64,000 bases of DNA from positions 1 to 64,000 of the forward strand of contig JAQWWZ010000041.1 in assembly GCA_029254745.1 (NCBI GenBank). Direction: 5' to 3'. This document shows positions 1 to 64,000 of the stretch, piece by piece. Each line of letters begins with the position of its first letter. Position 1 is the first letter of the stretch. The stretch comes from Opitutales bacterium. GTDB lineage: Bacteria; Verrucomicrobiota; Verrucomicrobiia; Opitutales; Seribacteraceae. Under the pieces are notes generated by a model. It saw nothing but the letters and a program-made list of their open reading frames with translations. It did not search any database and had not been told where the DNA came from. A program made the translations under genes and the position numbers.

Positions 1-755
1 GTGGCGAGAAGGGGGCGTGCATCTTTACCCTGGAAAAAGTGACGATCAATGGCATCGATTGCCCAGTCCAGTTTGCCCGAGAAAAAGGCTTCCGAGGCTT
101 CAAAAAAATCACCTTCCCCAAAGTCAGGAACCATTTCAATCACCATTTGCTCGGTGATCTCTCCACCATCTTTTCCCAGGAAGGACGATAATTTTTTTGT
201 TTCTTCCACTCCAAGCCTTGGATGAGATCCAATTTTACCGGCTAAATATTCAAGGGCACCTTGGCCAAAGCGGACATTAAAACCTTGAGCGGTTTCTTCC
301 ACAAGTCTACGAAACGCGACATCTTCTTTTTCATTTTTGGCAACATCTTCAAAGACCGAATTTTTTTGTAGCCATTTTACAAAGGCATGACTGCGGTGCA
401 CCGGGCAGGCAGAAAAAATAAGTTTTGTTTCTCCCAAGTTTCCCAAAAATGTCTTGAGGCTTTCGAGGGCTTCCTTGGAACCCTGGGCGGCACCGGTCTT
501 GGTCTGGTTTAGGAAGTTGGCCTCATTGATCCAGACCAGTTTGCCTCCACCGAAAAGGGACAGGGTTTCACCGGCGGACTTCGCTTCCTGCAGGATTCTT
601 TCCACATCATCCACCCGGTCTGCCCGGCCATCTATAATTTCCCGGGATAAATCATCCGGGAAATCTGCACAGAGTTCATCAAAAATTTCCTTGGCCCGTT
701 GGCGGACCAAGTAGTCATCGTCCCCAAGTACAGCAAATAAGGAATCCTTGGACAT
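1..755 (-). CDS. holA: DNA polymerase III subunit delta (HolA), C-terminus beyond window
   Basis: The minus strand is open from an ATG at 753-755 to the window edge, about 251 codons. The product starts MSKDSLFAVLGDDDYLVRQR and continues with the usual HolA pattern: a short N-terminal Walker-A-like region that binds no nucleotide, then 'LSLFGGGKLVWINEANFL', then an acidic, helical clamp-loader middle region. In the family, delta opens the beta sliding clamp inside the clamp-loader complex. Only the first two thirds or so is visible because the 3' end lies outside the window. It sits 46 bp downstream of cinA on the same strand and may be co-transcribed with it. No Shine-Dalgarno sequence is visible before the ATG. 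Assignment is by motif pattern only. Confidence 0.8.
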   Translation of the reverse strand, partial: MSKDSLFAVLGDDDYLVRQRAKEIFDELCADFPDDLSREIIDGRADRVDDVERILQEAKSAGETLSLFGGGKLVWINEANFLNQTKTGAAQGSKEALESLKTFLGNLGETKLIFSACPVHRSHAFVKWLQKNSVFEDVAKNEKEDVAFRRLVEETAQGFNVRFGQGALEYLAGKIGSHPRLGVEETKKLSSFLGKDGGEITEQMVIEMVPDFGEGDFFEASEAFFSGKLDWAIDAIDRHFFQGKDARPLLA

Positions 756-801
756 AGAAAATTAGGAGGGTTTGAAAAAGATAAAATCGAGGAATACTAG
801 T

Positions 802-2100
802 TTAAACTTCGATACTACCGGAATCGGCCGCCGCAAAAACTTCTTCAATTTTATATTTTCGCAGTTTCCGACGCATCCAGTCCAAAGCGGCTGTGGTGGC
901 CCGTCTCCGATTGGATGCCCGATCCCCTCGTAAATGAAGTTGCTTGGCCCATACCCCTAGGGGGGAAGCATAGCCTAAGTAGATGGATCCAACCGGTAAT
1001 AATTGAGTTCCACCCGTTGGCCCGGCAAACCCGGTGACACTGAGCCCATAATCCGCCCCAAATTTTTCACAGGCTCCCATGGCCATGGCAATGGCTACTT
1101 CTTCACTGACCGCTCCGTGTTGCTTAAGCATACTTTCCGGGACCTCAGCCACCTGGACTTTGGCATCATTGTGGTAGCAAACTGCTCCGCCGTGAAAGAC
1201 TTTTGAGATTCCAGCAATTTCTGTAAATTGAGAGGATAACAGACCCCCCGTGCAGGATTCTGCGACCGCGAGGGTTTTGTTTAAGCCTCGAAGTTCCCGG
1301 AAAATGACTTCGGCCAGGGTACGATCTCCAAAGCATACAAAGTCTTCCCCTAGCAATTCCCTGCACTTATCGGCAAGCTCGTGAAGCTTTTCTTCCGATA
1401 ATATATCCGAATCATGGGAGCTGAGGCGAAGGTCAACCATACCGGCATGAGCACAATAGCCGACAATGAGGCCATCGGTATCGTTGAGTATGGGCTCGAC
1501 CATCTCGGCGAGGGCAGACTCCCCTAAGCCAGCGGTACGAATCTGGAGATAACAATCAATCTCAGGAAAAATACCTTCTTTTTGCAGGCGGGGAACCACT
1601 TGATCCTCAAACATGGGGTGCATTTCCCGGGCGGGTCCTGGAAGCATGACCAAAATTTTCCCATCCTTTTTAAGAAAGAGGCCGGGTGCGGTTCCGTAGG
1701 GGTTGGATAAGACCTCTGCATTCTCAAATCGATTGCATTGCTTGAGATTGCTTTCCGGCATCTCACGGTGGAGGGATGAAAAGCGTTCCTTAATGGCCTG
1801 CTCAATTGACGGGTCATAAATAAGTTTTTCTCCCAGAGCTTCAGCGATGGACTCACGGGTCAAATCATCCGAGGTGGGGCCGAGACCGCCGGTGGTGATG
1901 ATGAGATCTGACCTTTTCCAGCAATCGGAGAAAAAGAGATGGATATCATCCGGTTGGTCACGGATTACCAGGTTTGCCGCGGGCTCGATACCATGGTGGG
2001 CAAATTGAACACCCAAATAGGTAAGGTGGGCATTTTCACGAATTCCAAGGAGAAGTTCATCTCCCAAGGTTATGGTTTCTACTCGAATAGGAGAACTCAT
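802..2100 (-). CDS. cinA: CinA family protein (MoCF-like domain plus PncC nicotinamide-nucleotide amidase domain)
   Basis: The 432-residue product has full length for CinA. The N-terminal molybdopterin-binding-like domain shows GDELLLG at residues 12-18 and TTGGLGPTSDD near residue 70. In the family this half carries ADP-ribose pyrophosphatase activity. The C-terminal PncC domain (about 270-415) has AVAESCTGGLLSS and SVTGFAGPTGGT, the usual NMN deamidase signatures for pyridine-nucleotide salvage. The gene is divergent from uvrC, with 86 bp between the two starts, and lies upstream of holA on minus. The motif usually read GTELLLGQ is GDELLLGI here, a minor change. Confidence 0.93.
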   Translation of the reverse strand: MSSPIRVETITLGDELLLGIRENAHLTYLGVQFAHHGIEPAANLVIRDQPDDIHLFFSDCWKRSDLIITTGGLGPTSDDLTRESIAEALGEKLIYDPSIEQAIKERFSSLHREMPESNLKQCNRFENAEVLSNPYGTAPGLFLKKDGKILVMLPGPAREMHPMFEDQVVPRLQKEGIFPEIDCYLQIRTAGLGESALAEMVEPILNDTDGLIVGYCAHAGMVDLRLSSHDSDILSEEKLHELADKCRELLGEDFVCFGDRTLAEVIFRELRGLNKTLAVAESCTGGLLSSQFTEIAGISKVFHGGAVCYHNDAKVQVAEVPESMLKQHGAVSEEVAIAMAMGACEKFGADYGLSVTGFAGPTGGTQLLPVGSIYLGYASPLGVWAKQLHLRGDRASNRRRATTAALDWMRRKLRKYKIEEVFAAADSGSIEV

Positions 2101-3768: not shown

Positions 3769-4965
3769 ATGCAGGATCCAAAAATAAAGTGCCTGAAACG
3801 ATTAGCTGTCGAAATACAAGCAAGAGTAAAGGTTGCAAAAGCTCAGCCTGTAGTCTTGCAATCCATGTCGACCTACATCTTGGCTTACGAGCAAATGTTG
3901 ATGCACCGCCATTGGCTGGGTGTTCGGATCGACAGAGGAGAACCGGACAGAGAACCTGTGCCTAAGCCGGAAATGCGTACCATGTTACGACCTATTGGGG
4001 ATATCGTCGTATGGACGGATACCCAAGGGGATGAACTGCTCATGGTTTTTATCCGGGATGTACTATCAGGATTGATTGCAGGGTGCTCCGTTACCCTCAC
4101 ACTTATCGGTGGGGATGAATATGATCATGAGGTGCTTTACCTCCTCCAAAAAAGTTGGAAGGTTGCGGGCTGGCAGGAAAATGCATTCCAGGTATCAATC
4201 CAGGATAATCTCGAAGCTTTTAAGGGAGATGCAGGGTATTTATCATGCCAGGCTCTAGTATTTGATTTTGTGGATCGCAAAAGGGGGGAGGCTGCCAAGA
4301 GGGTTGTGGGGCAATGGGATAAAGTGATACCTTGTTTTGAAAATAGACGGGCGGCCAACCTTTCCCTTTTTCTTCCCTGGATTCCGCAGGGTGAACTGAT
4401 GGAATTGTTGAAGCAAACTATCGGGTATTTGGACGGAAGTAATCCCGGGATATTTCATCGCGGAGCCTTGATTCTATGCCCTGATCTGGTGATAGATGAT
4501 TGGCTCGTTATAGTTTCTGAGTGCCTTGAAAACTGGAATATTGAAGTTAAGAACGCAAAAGATATCAGGGAGGATTTCCAAAATGAAAAAATCACTCCCG
4601 GAAACTTGCAGGGGCATCTGTATTTGGTTCCCTACAGCAACTTGGAAGATTGTATTGAGCTCGTAAGATATCTGCCCGAGACCCGGCCAATTCAAGTGTT
4701 TGGGACCGGCACAGCGAAGCAGCCAACCGAGCGCTTGATAGATGAAGTCGAACTCAAAGCTAGCCTGCTTTCCTTGGGTTGTTTTCCTCGCTGTGAAGAT
4801 TTATTTTTCCTTCCAGCCATAGCTTTTCCAAGTTGTGGAGATTTGGAACTGAATGAACAGGTAGCGGAAATGTTATTGGTTTCGAGGTTTATGCGCCCGG
4901 TATGCTTTCAGCAAGTTCCAGATGAATACTTGCCTCGGGAGCTGATGAGATCTAAGAAAAGCTAG
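3769..4965 (+). CDS. Protein of unknown function, possibly a degenerate aldehyde-dehydrogenase-like fold
   Basis: I do not recognise this 398-residue protein with confidence. It has no signal peptide and no obvious membrane segment. One stretch (about 74-140) alternates like the cofactor-binding part of aldehyde dehydrogenases: a proline and aromatic entry (RPIGDIVVWT), a helix ending in GLIAGCSVTLTLIGG where ALDHs have LAAGNTVVLKP, then a helix and a short strand. Near the C-terminus NLEDCIELVRYL followed by PIQVFGTG resembles the ALDH 'dEAI.lan...glaasvft' segment. No catalytic Cys/Glu motif of ALDH is evident, so any such relationship would be to an inactive regulatory-type copy. The gene is followed 6 bp later by the NPF-repeat gene on the same strand. 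It could equally be an unrelated lineage-specific protein. Confidence 0.7.
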   Translation: MQDPKIKCLKRLAVEIQARVKVAKAQPVVLQSMSTYILAYEQMLMHRHWLGVRIDRGEPDREPVPKPEMRTMLRPIGDIVVWTDTQGDELLMVFIRDVLSGLIAGCSVTLTLIGGDEYDHEVLYLLQKSWKVAGWQENAFQVSIQDNLEAFKGDAGYLSCQALVFDFVDRKRGEAAKRVVGQWDKVIPCFENRRAANLSLFLPWIPQGELMELLKQTIGYLDGSNPGIFHRGALILCPDLVIDDWLVIVSECLENWNIEVKNAKDIREDFQNEKITPGNLQGHLYLVPYSNLEDCIELVRYLPETRPIQVFGTGTAKQPTERLIDEVELKASLLSLGCFPRCEDLFFLPAIAFPSCGDLELNEQVAEMLLVSRFMRPVCFQQVPDEYLPRELMRSKKS

Positions 4966-61573: not shown

Positions 61574-64000
61574 ATGGAAGCCAGTCGTCTACATGCGTGG
61601 TTGCCCACACCCCGGTTGAGGAGTCCTGGGGTCCCTGGTGCCTGCCTGCTTGTATTGATTGCCTTGCATGGTTTTGCTCTGGGAAATCAGGAGAAAATAG
61701 GATTGGGTCACTCTGGTGCCTTCACCCTCGATACCATGGAGCCAAACCCGATGGTCAGTATTGGCCTGGCTGATTCCATTGGTTTTGAGTTGGACACGGG
61801 GGGAGATGATGGCACTTTCCGTATCGGAGCGGATGAGTCCATAGGTTTTATTTTAAATACCTTGGACTCTGCAAGTTCCATCGATCTTAACCAGGCTGGG
61901 TTTTCCGATTCCGGTGGCTTTCGCCTGGATACGAAAGAGGGGATTTCCGGCTTTGTGGGTACCACGGATACAGGCTTTGCGGATTCCAGTGTTTTTTCCC
62001 TGGATACATCCAGCGGAAATGCCGTGGCCTGGGATCTAAACGATACGGGGTATGCGGACTCCTCCGGTTTTCAGCTCGATACCCGAGATGATTCCTTGTT
62101 TGGGGATTCTAGTTTTTCTGATTCTGCCGGTTTCCAACTGGATACCCGGGAAACCAATGAAGTGGTTGATAGGGGCTATGCAGACTCTGGCAGTTTTCAG
62201 CTCGATACCGGCGGGCATGACGGGTCTTTGCTCTTTGGTTTTTCTGACTCTGGAAGCTTTCAGCTCGATACACGGAACAGGGATGAGGTGTACTATGGAG
62301 ATGCCAATACATCTTTTGCTGATTCATCCGGCTTTTCCTTGGATACCCGGGATGGTAATGGAGGTTCCAACTTAACCGGCGGCGAACTTGTCAGTGTAAA
62401 GGGGACAATTTTTTATGATGGTGTGGTTTCAGGTTCGGCTTATGTATGGGCCATGGAAGCCAATGGCAGTAAAGCCGCGGAAGATAAAATCAGCATTGGT
62501 GAGGGGAATTACTCCATCCTTGTGGAGAAAGGGAGAGCCTATGACCTCAAAGCCTTTATCGATGGCAATGAGAATGGCCTGGCCTCCACCGGAGAACCAT
62601 GGGGGCATTATAGAGAGTGGAATAACACCACAAACCGATTCAACCTCCTGCAAGTGGATGGTAATCTTACCCATATTCACTTCAACTTAGAGGACCGGGA
62701 TACCGACTCGGACGGCTTTCTTGACTGGGTCGAAGTAGAGGCCGGAACGGATGAAAACAATGCCAGCTCTTTCCCAAATACCTCCCCCCACTTCCAGTCT
62801 GACGGCAATTTGAGTGTTATGGAAAACCAGACTTTTGTTTTTGAGTTCAATGCTTCCGACCCGGATCAAGGGGATTCGCTTTCTTACTCCATTTTGCACG
62901 GGAATGATGCAAGCATGTTTGAGCTCAACGCATTAAGCGGTGAACTTTTACTGATCACCTCACGCGACTTTGAATTCCCCGATGACAATAATTCCGACAA
63001 TGTTTACGAATTTACGGTTCAGGTAAGCGACGGCGAGGGCAACGCTACCCTCGATGTCAATGTCACAGTCCTTGATGTGTACGAATCCAGCAAGGCTAAT
63101 CAATCTCTGAATGATTCCAACTTCATGACCGCTGTAAACATGTGGTTCAGCGACGAAGCGAATGCCACCGCTACCTATGGCCATATCAGCGACTGGAATA
63201 CCTCCGCGGTTACAAATATGTACCAAGCTTTTAAGGACAGAGTTTCTTTTAATGAAGAGATAAGCAAATGGGATGTAAGTCGGGTCAAAAATTTCAGCGG
63301 ATTCTTTCGGGGTGCCAAATCTTTCAATCAAGACATTACAAACTGGGATACATCTTCGGCCACGACATTTGCGGAGATGTTCCGGGATGCCACATCCTTT
63401 AACCAAGCGATCGGTGATTGGAATGTATCCTCTCTTCTCAGCCTGGAGAAAATCTTCTGGAGTGCCGCTGCCTTTAATCAGGATTTGAGCAATTGGGACA
63501 TTACAGGAGTCAATACAATGGGGCATATCTTTGCTTCTGCGGGTTCCCTGAGCGTGGAAAATAAGAATTTTATCCATCAGGCTTTTTCGAACAACTCAAA
63601 CTGGCCTTATGACTGGGGGATAGCATCAAACCAGGTGCCGAAATTCCAAAGTGATGGCAACCTGAGCGTTCAGGAGAACCAGGCATTTATCTACGATTTT
63701 GAGGCCCTGGATGCGGATGGGGATGTGGTCACTTACTCCCTCAATGGGGGGGGTGATGCTGCCCTGTTTGAACTGATCCCAAGCACGGGGCACTTGGCGT
63801 TTATCTCGCTGCCGGAGTATAAAAGCCCGACGGATAAAAATGGAGATAACCTCTACGAGGTGACGCTTCAAGTAAGCGATGGCCAAGCCACTGCATCCCT
63901 GAATGTGGTCGTGGAGGTAACCGAAAAAGTTGAAGTCACTCCAAACCAGGCGCCGCAATTCCACAGTGATGGCAACCTGAGCGTTCAGGAGAACCAGGCA
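61574..64000 (+). CDS. Large secreted repeat protein (FxLDT repeats, TSP3-like, cadherin-like, DUF285), 3' end beyond window
   Basis: One frame is open from ATG 61574 to the window end, 809 codons without a stop, so it is longer than shown. After a signal-like N-terminus (CLLVLIALHGFALG) come ten (S)xxFxLDT repeats (61712-62350, about residues 47-259). Next is a beta domain with DGNENGLASTGEP, then a TSP3-like DTDSDGFLDWVEVEAGTD. Two cadherin-like units follow ('GNLSVxENQxFxxxFxAxDxDxxD...', about 402-505 and 686-786), flanking a BspA-type DUF285 region (63178-63590, WDVSRVKNFSGFF, FNQDITNWDTSS). The start of a third cadherin-like unit is cut by the edge. Likely a surface adhesin or matrix protein. 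It follows the FGE-like gene by 48 bp. Confidence 0.88.
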   Translation, partial: MEASRLHAWLPTPRLRSPGVPGACLLVLIALHGFALGNQEKIGLGHSGAFTLDTMEPNPMVSIGLADSIGFELDTGGDDGTFRIGADESIGFILNTLDSASSIDLNQAGFSDSGGFRLDTKEGISGFVGTTDTGFADSSVFSLDTSSGNAVAWDLNDTGYADSSGFQLDTRDDSLFGDSSFSDSAGFQLDTRETNEVVDRGYADSGSFQLDTGGHDGSLLFGFSDSGSFQLDTRNRDEVYYGDANTSFADSSGFSLDTRDGNGGSNLTGGELVSVKGTIFYDGVVSGSAYVWAMEANGSKAAEDKISIGEGNYSILVEKGRAYDLKAFIDGNENGLASTGEPWGHYREWNNTTNRFNLLQVDGNLTHIHFNLEDRDTDSDGFLDWVEVEAGTDENNASSFPNTSPHFQSDGNLSVMENQTFVFEFNASDPDQGDSLSYSILHGNDASMFELNALSGELLLITSRDFEFPDDNNSDNVYEFTVQVSDGEGNATLDVNVTVLDVYESSKANQSLNDSNFMTAVNMWFSDEANATATYGHISDWNTSAVTNMYQAFKDRVSFNEEISKWDVSRVKNFSGFFRGAKSFNQDITNWDTSSATTFAEMFRDATSFNQAIGDWNVSSLLSLEKIFWSAAAFNQDLSNWDITGVNTMGHIFASAGSLSVENKNFIHQAFSNNSNWPYDWGIASNQVPKFQSDGNLSVQENQAFIYDFEALDADGDVVTYSLNGGGDAALFELIPSTGHLAFISLPEYKSPTDKNGDNLYEVTLQVSDGQATASLNVVVEVTEKVEVTPNQAPQFHSDGNLSVQENQA
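61712..62350 (+). repeat. Ten FxLDT protein repeats
   Basis: The motif (D)SxxFxLDT occurs ten times at 16-26 residue spacing: SGAFTLDT, SIGFELDT, SIGFILNT, SGGFRLDT, SSVFSLDT, SSGFQLDT, SAGFQLDT, SGSFQLDT (twice) and SSGFSLDT. Later copies are more alike (FQLDTR), suggesting recent expansion. Confidence 0.85.
63629..63685 (+). repeat. 57-bp direct repeat, copy 1 (with 63944-64000)
   Basis: The 57-bp stretch starting AACCAGGTGCCG and ending GAGAACCAGGCA matches 63944-64000 at 54 of 57 positions. The two copies lie 315 bp apart (105 codons), one cadherin-like unit. Confidence 0.9.
63944..64000 (+). repeat. 57-bp direct repeat, copy 2, at window edge
   Basis: Differs from 63629-63685 at only three positions (C for T, C for A, C for A). 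The array probably continues past the window. Confidence 0.9.

Follow-up and report, generated by a model that had tools for sequence, protein, structure and literature searches.

The last few kilobases of the window, by which we mean the whole 64,000-nt stretch of an Opitutales genome analysed here, probably encode a modular, exported cell-surface adhesin, in which a stable N-terminal platform of FxLDT repeats is followed by exchangeable binding modules and whose gene adjoins that of a secreted FGE-like partner (Table 1). Export and surface display are predicted from sequence features. The reading frame begins at 61574 on the forward strand and, as an earlier note on this DNA had reported, is open to the window edge at 64000, over 809 codons. 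The window belongs to contig C49 (G000 genome; 2.45 Mb in 72 contigs), which ends at 64798, and the flanking sequence holds no early stop: the frame stays open for the 798 nt past the window, giving 1,075 codons in total. In a sister genome, the Opitutales MAG G038, the whole gene neighbourhood is assembled in one piece and reads ftsA-type gene, ftsZ-type gene, FGE-like gene, FxLDT gene, 318-aa gene and NhaP-type antiporter (names assigned by eye). The neighbours in our genome agree, with ftsA, ftsZ and the FGE-like gene lying before the FxLDT gene on C49, and the 318-aa gene and antiporter after it on contig C9, which opens with the remainder of the FxLDT gene (nt 3-1529, 508 codons, stop at C9:1529). 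When aligned to the sister gene, the penultimate base of C49 falls on position 4640 and base 6 of C9 on position 4642. Most likely, C49 continues into C9, which would make a gene of ~1,580 codons that ends ~2.3 kb past the window, with the window ORF as its 5′ part and about two thirds of its length reached by the end of C49. The joint is based on synteny without bridging sequence, and the gap may hold additional modules. The earlier description of the protein as very large is to be tempered: with an end expected so soon after the window edge, the gene appears large rather than giant.

Table 1. Features of the FxLDT surface-protein locus (window coordinates unless a contig is named)
Feature	Position	Strand	Basis or remark
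FGE-like partner gene, 472 aa	60107..61525	+	PF03781, 36.5 bits
FxLDT surface-protein gene	61574..64000, on to 64798 (C49), then most likely C9 nt 3-1529	+	open frame, synteny
N-terminal segment, likely signal peptide	61574..61687	+	sequence read by eye
FxLDT repeat block, ten units	61688..62389	+	motif positions and spacing; no family match
CnaB/carboxypeptidase-regulatory-like (by eye) plus TSP3/calcium-loop-like stretch	62390..62778	+	matches at residues 272-416
Cadherin-like unit 1	62779..63088	+	PF00028
DUF285/PARCEL (BspA-type) repeats, 75-bp spacing	63104..63620	+	PF03382, TIGR02167
Cadherin-like unit 2	63628..63942	+	absent at the corresponding place in sister G038
Cadherin-like unit 3, start	63943..64000, to ~64257 on contig	+	counterpart of the sister's single unit

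What is the FxLDT block? The ten repeats counted previously are all present, nine as exact FxLDT and one as FILNT, within the first 272 residues, the F of each motif lying at residues 50, 71, 92, 116, 141, 166, 187, 208, 229, and 254 (spacings of 21, 21, 24, 25, 25, 21, 21, 21, and 25 residues). A unit hence measures 21 or 24–25 residues and follows the consensus G[FY]xDSxxFxLDT, then a variable linker. In 2,000 shuffles of the first 290 residues, exact FxLDT occurred 0.03 times on average and at most once, compared to nine times in the actual sequence. Pfam, NCBIfam, PHROGs, and PDB sequences contain no match to the block, in line with the earlier failure to name a family for it. The ten units of G000 and the ten of G038 correspond one to one, with 17–21 of 21 residues identical in positional counterparts and no more than 13 of 21 in different units (off-diagonal comparisons). 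Unit number has thus stayed the same since the split from the sister, and the units are old in the window lineage. The block is moreover under purifying selection, with pN 0.05 and pS 0.235 between the two genomes (corrected ratio 0.18; 0.12 for the core 12-mers and 0.24 for the linkers). The growth and shrinkage that had been proposed for these repeats finds no support in the window lineage.

Judged by our searches, the FxLDT repeat is nearly confined to one Opitutales family. A protein search was positive in 14 of 42 genomes of the own family; a profile search returned 17 of 372 genomes of the order (15 in the own family and 2 in another) and, across the phylum, 2 of 387 genomes, the own genome being among the two; and scanning genome contigs with a three-row FxLDT alignment retrieved two loci only, in G038 and G013. 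In most loci with the gene start assembled, the repeats lie near the N-terminus after a start that resembles a signal peptide by eye, and in G007, G076, and G034 they are found further inside the protein. Arrays elsewhere have 2 to 19 units in view, several of them running off contigs. Some are tandems at the DNA level: the G005 array has a period of 63 bp (15.7 copies, 71% match), a second G005 contig an FxLDT tandem with a 252-bp period (87% match), and the G037 array a period of 75 bp (4.1 copies, 89% match). The two G005 loci, L051 (G005:C70) and L011 (G005:C100), show 19 and 9 FxLDT-type units in 63-bp tandems that run off contig ends, one with the 252-bp super-period. Across genomes, 8 of 20 arrays lie within 50 nt of a contig end, as against 0.19 expected and a simulation maximum of 4 (the count would be 9 of 20 with G024, which we excluded, its match having overrun the array and its last unit ending ~200 nt from the contig end). 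Such clustering would be produced by arrays exceeding the read length, but it is only a hint.

This wide range of unit numbers, the 63- and 75-bp tandems with 71–89% match, and the crowding at contig ends would all suit a tandem array that expands and contracts freely, as in a length-variation adhesin, with the constancy between our two genomes owed to chance. We consider this unlikely for the window gene, whose units resemble their positional counterparts in G038 more than each other and in whose FxLDT block a tandem-repeat search at the DNA level gave no array. An eight-unit block with nearly the same spacing, furthermore, is shared by G029 and G024 of the own genus and G013 of another genus. 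By eye, the eight units of G024 resemble a four-unit set taken twice.

A fixed unit number and spacing in two genera would also fit a defined fold, and the block might accordingly be a folded ligand-binding or enzymatic β-hairpin domain rather than a stalk. The fold prediction suggested previously was run on the block with AlphaFold and yielded no usable fold (mean pLDDT 53.7 for three rows comprising the window and relatives, 44.4 for six rows of four-unit stretches), although the low-confidence models contain short strand pairs in each unit. As no enzyme family was matched in the four libraries searched, the block is rich in G, D, S, and T, and unit number varies widely in other genomes, we regard the folded-domain reading as improbable too. 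Because the AlphaFold models are poor, "stalk" is likewise a guess.

Behind the FxLDT block follow modules of better-known types. The CnaB-like/TSP3-like region (residues 272-416) recurs in other proteins of the genus, with TSP3_bac remaining below threshold in the window gene (13.9 bits versus 25). DUF285 between cadherin-like units, as proposed before, is substantiated by PF03382 (155.2 bits, E 7e-46, cut-off 25) and TIGR02167 (35.9 bits versus a cut-off of 30), and the cadherin model PF00028 matches in two stretches (71.3 bits versus 28.8). The part on C9 adds at least one further cadherin-like unit and then a W-rich C-terminal domain (L047:1170-1526, G000:C9), which is present in 27 of 27 genomes of the genus with 21 matches in G000 and is without a Pfam match; the names "W-rich" and "CnaB-like" were assigned by eye. 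We infer that the W-rich domain is a candidate sorting or anchoring part. The own genome also encodes a paralog of at least 1,505 aa on C60 (L004:13520-18037), in which FGE, cadherin, TSP3, LamG, DUF285, four HYR-type Ig units, and a similar W-rich end make up the same modules in a different order.

Relative to G038, the window gene differs by whole modules. The two genes align unbroken to position 1529 in both and resume at 1546 in G000 and 3265 in G038, the sister having an additional ~1.7 kb segment between cadherin 1 and DUF285 that comprises an FGE domain, a HYR-type Ig domain (PF16403), and a LamG domain. After DUF285, G038 has one cadherin as opposed to two in G000. Synonymous divergence from the sister is about twice as high in cadherin 1, which adjoins the joint of the FGE-HYR-LamG segment, as in other parts of the gene (pS 0.50, versus 0.24 in the FxLDT block, 0.22 in the region after the block, and 0.31 in DUF285), as expected if cadherin 1 had been replaced by recombination. 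We found no third close relative assembled across the FGE-LamG difference. Could these differences be artefacts of a decaying or assembly-chimeric ORF? In favour of this are the MAG origin of the data, contig ends inside repetitive genes, and a stop inside the sister's variable repeat (see below). However, the frame is open for 1,075 codons on C49 and another 508 on C9 and is kept across both module differences, which, together with corrected pN/pS of 0.07–0.22 in the four modules tested between G000 and G038, makes this very unlikely. The earlier picture of a modular adhesin remodelled by recombination thus stands in part: the protein is modular, probably exported, and different from its G038 counterpart by entire modules, but its FxLDT count is constant and a recent duplication is not seen.

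The latter had been proposed from a direct repeat at 315-bp spacing. This repeat exists and is slightly better than described, its best 57-bp register (63637/63952) having two differences instead of three. Yet, similarity between the copies covers 131 bp at 88.5% identity (BLAST), and the remaining ~184 bp of the unit have strongly diverged: between 63628-63942 and 63943-64257, the first five 21-bp blocks have 18–21 identical positions, the sixth 14, and the other nine 5–16. With only ~131 of 315 bp alike, this block-by-block identity rules out a recent duplication of the 315-bp unit. The sister's single cadherin after DUF285 shares 82 of 107 residues with cadherin 3 and 54 of 107 with cadherin 2. 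Because of both the block divergence and this closer kinship to cadherin 3, cadherin 2 is an additional unit of some age with a direct repeat at its flanks, and no fresh copy. Its presence fits either a loss in the sister or a gain here, with the repeated sequence as the site of recombination. By eye, G031:C190, which was left out of the cadherin identity table, also has a tandem pair of cadherins that show the same motif.

Immediately upstream lies the FGE-like partner gene, with a signal peptide and an Ig-like N-terminal part (both by eye) and then an FGE/SUMF1-like domain. An ortholog sits directly upstream of the FxLDT gene in nine of nine genomes with both sides assembled (G000, G038, G029, G013, G024, G025, G028, G040, and G058, the last from another family); G022, G031, G032, G033, and G035, where the contig ends too soon, are omitted from this count, and FGE matches of lower score elsewhere were not taken as orthologs. 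The FxLDT loci looked at in G005, G037, and G004 show no FGE-like match, but there the array runs to the contig end and the upstream side is missing. The G007 repeats are embedded in a longer ORF without an FGE-like match, and G034 has only a weak FGE match, farther away; G002, G006, G076, and G493 were not part of the check. The FGE-like and FxLDT genes hence form a conserved pair in genomes from two families of the order. FGE, a sulfatase-modifying enzyme, has an active-site cysteine pair in its FGE domain. The cysteines of the partner are residues 71 and 467 of 472 only, and the PF03781 match, spanning 167-409, contains none. The partner therefore seems to lack the active-site pair and is more likely lectin-like; it is probably a secreted, non-enzymatic protein of C-type-lectin fold. 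Its last 115 aligned columns are the most diverged between G000 and G038 (27/40, 29/40, and 25/35 identical, versus 30–39/40 earlier).

The FGE domain within the G038 FxLDT gene leads to a diversity-generating retroelement (DGR). The final stretch of this domain occurs repeatedly in G038, in ten variable-repeat-like copies including itself, plus a template. The latter is the A-rich copy on G038:C10, next to which lies a reverse transcriptase (RVT_1, 66 bits); its A fraction is 0.24–0.27 compared to 0.13–0.22 in the other copies in G038, G000, and G024. The variable repeat of the G038 FxLDT gene differs from the template at 19 of 31 adenines versus 7 of 94 other bases (p 3e-9), and the adenine bias recurs in all 12 copies compared with the G038 template (p 7.5e-06 to 1.8e-11; nine of the ten of G038, two of G000, and one of G024, leaving out a truncated C15 copy and the G028 copies). 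The G038 element as a whole (L076:3726-4896 on G038:C10, and L045:11505-11665) has about ten dispersed variable repeats, several of which then continue in frame. That of the FxLDT gene is followed by ~1,300 codons in the same frame and is internal by architecture, but besides the seven changes at non-adenine sites it contains an in-frame stop that, if real, would end the product there; the gene may be broken in G038, or the stop may be an error that arose when a mixed population was collapsed into one consensus. Moreover, none of the nine G038 copies compared aligns to the template without a gap, and the ORFs of L076 break near variable repeats: either the MAG consensus mixes variants, or some G038 targets are broken. 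An intact ORF of 1,020 aa in G028 bears variable repeats at residues 574-607 (internal) and 983-1016 (end).

We reject a DGR acting on the window gene itself, as its 1,075-codon ORF has neither an FGE match nor a variable repeat and the G000 assembly no reverse transcriptase match; such a match was obtained in 7 of 27 genomes of the genus. The element may have been lost from G000 or be unassembled, and because the assembly gave no reverse transcriptase match, diversification cannot be claimed for the window gene. The G038 variable repeat matches G000 on C68 and C26 only, outside the window gene. On these two contigs, FGE genes end in DGR-type variable repeats (L081:205-333 on C68 and L082:5038-5167 on C26), each gene being cut ~200–230 nt upstream by a contig end.

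How might the protein work? On our preferred reading of a modular surface adhesin, the order would be signal peptide, FxLDT block, CnaB-like/TSP3-like region, cadherin 1, DUF285/PARCEL, cadherins 2 and 3, the cadherin-like unit or units on C9, and the W-rich end. The FxLDT block would act as a β-rich stalk or platform of fixed size, and the W-rich end would serve for sorting or anchoring. DUF285, LamG, FGE, and cadherin units would be modules for binding or spacing that can replace one another, the exchange occurring through recombination where cadherin and linker sequences are repeated. In G038, the same scaffold could display a hypermutable binding face, since the FGE domain of the extra segment carries a DGR variable repeat. 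More tentatively, non-catalytic FGE-like protein and FxLDT adhesin might together constitute a two-gene Opitutales surface-recognition system, with an internal DGR lectin cassette gained or lost between sister species by recombination. If true, module exchange would switch DGR diversity on and off for one adhesin, and variable repeats would act inside long genes rather than at their ends; the 1,020-aa ORF in G028 supports internal repeats.

Regarding DGRs in general, Roux et al. 2021 (PMC8144416) describe targets as near-universally carrying the variable repeat at the C-terminus and link this placement to cis-acting DNA needed for retrohoming, which is why the internal repeats deserve attention: they make it testable whether retrohoming needs a C-terminal target flanked by intergenic DNA. 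Searching the DGR literature under "opitut" returned nothing. The comparison of G000 and G038 offers a concrete example of an adhesin scaffold that carries a DGR-target cassette in one species and lacks it in its sister. Interest would increase if movement of such a cassette into and out of the FxLDT scaffold were demonstrated.

Compared to known systems, the G038 ortholog resembles the DGR targets of C-type-lectin fold (PMC8144416) in that the 3′ part of an FGE domain differs from an A-rich template mainly at adenines; the window gene departs from them in lacking an FGE domain, and G038 in having its variable repeat internal instead of C-terminal. With PARCEL/DUF285 (BspA-type) surface proteins, for which Roske et al. 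2010 (PMC2996958) proposed intra-genomic shuffling of the repeats, the window gene shares 75-bp, 25-residue repeats in a predicted surface protein. Here, in contrast, the PARCEL repeats make up a single module, which stands between cadherins and comes after an FxLDT block. Bacterial cadherin-domain adhesins (PF00028 and relatives) are alike in cadherin-like units, multidomain architecture, and a likely signal peptide, to which the window gene adds the N-terminal FxLDT block, a fixed upstream FGE-like partner, and the W-rich C-terminal domain. Among the titles and abstract openings listed for DUF285, BspA, and cadherins and for cadherin or giant proteins of Verrucomicrobia, none deals with this protein. 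Its domain kit of cadherin, DUF285, LamG, FGE, and HYR is common, but for the FxLDT repeat the libraries searched contain no model. Being an unnamed repeat in conserved pairing with an FGE-like gene, FxLDT could be registered as a family and studied as a unit.
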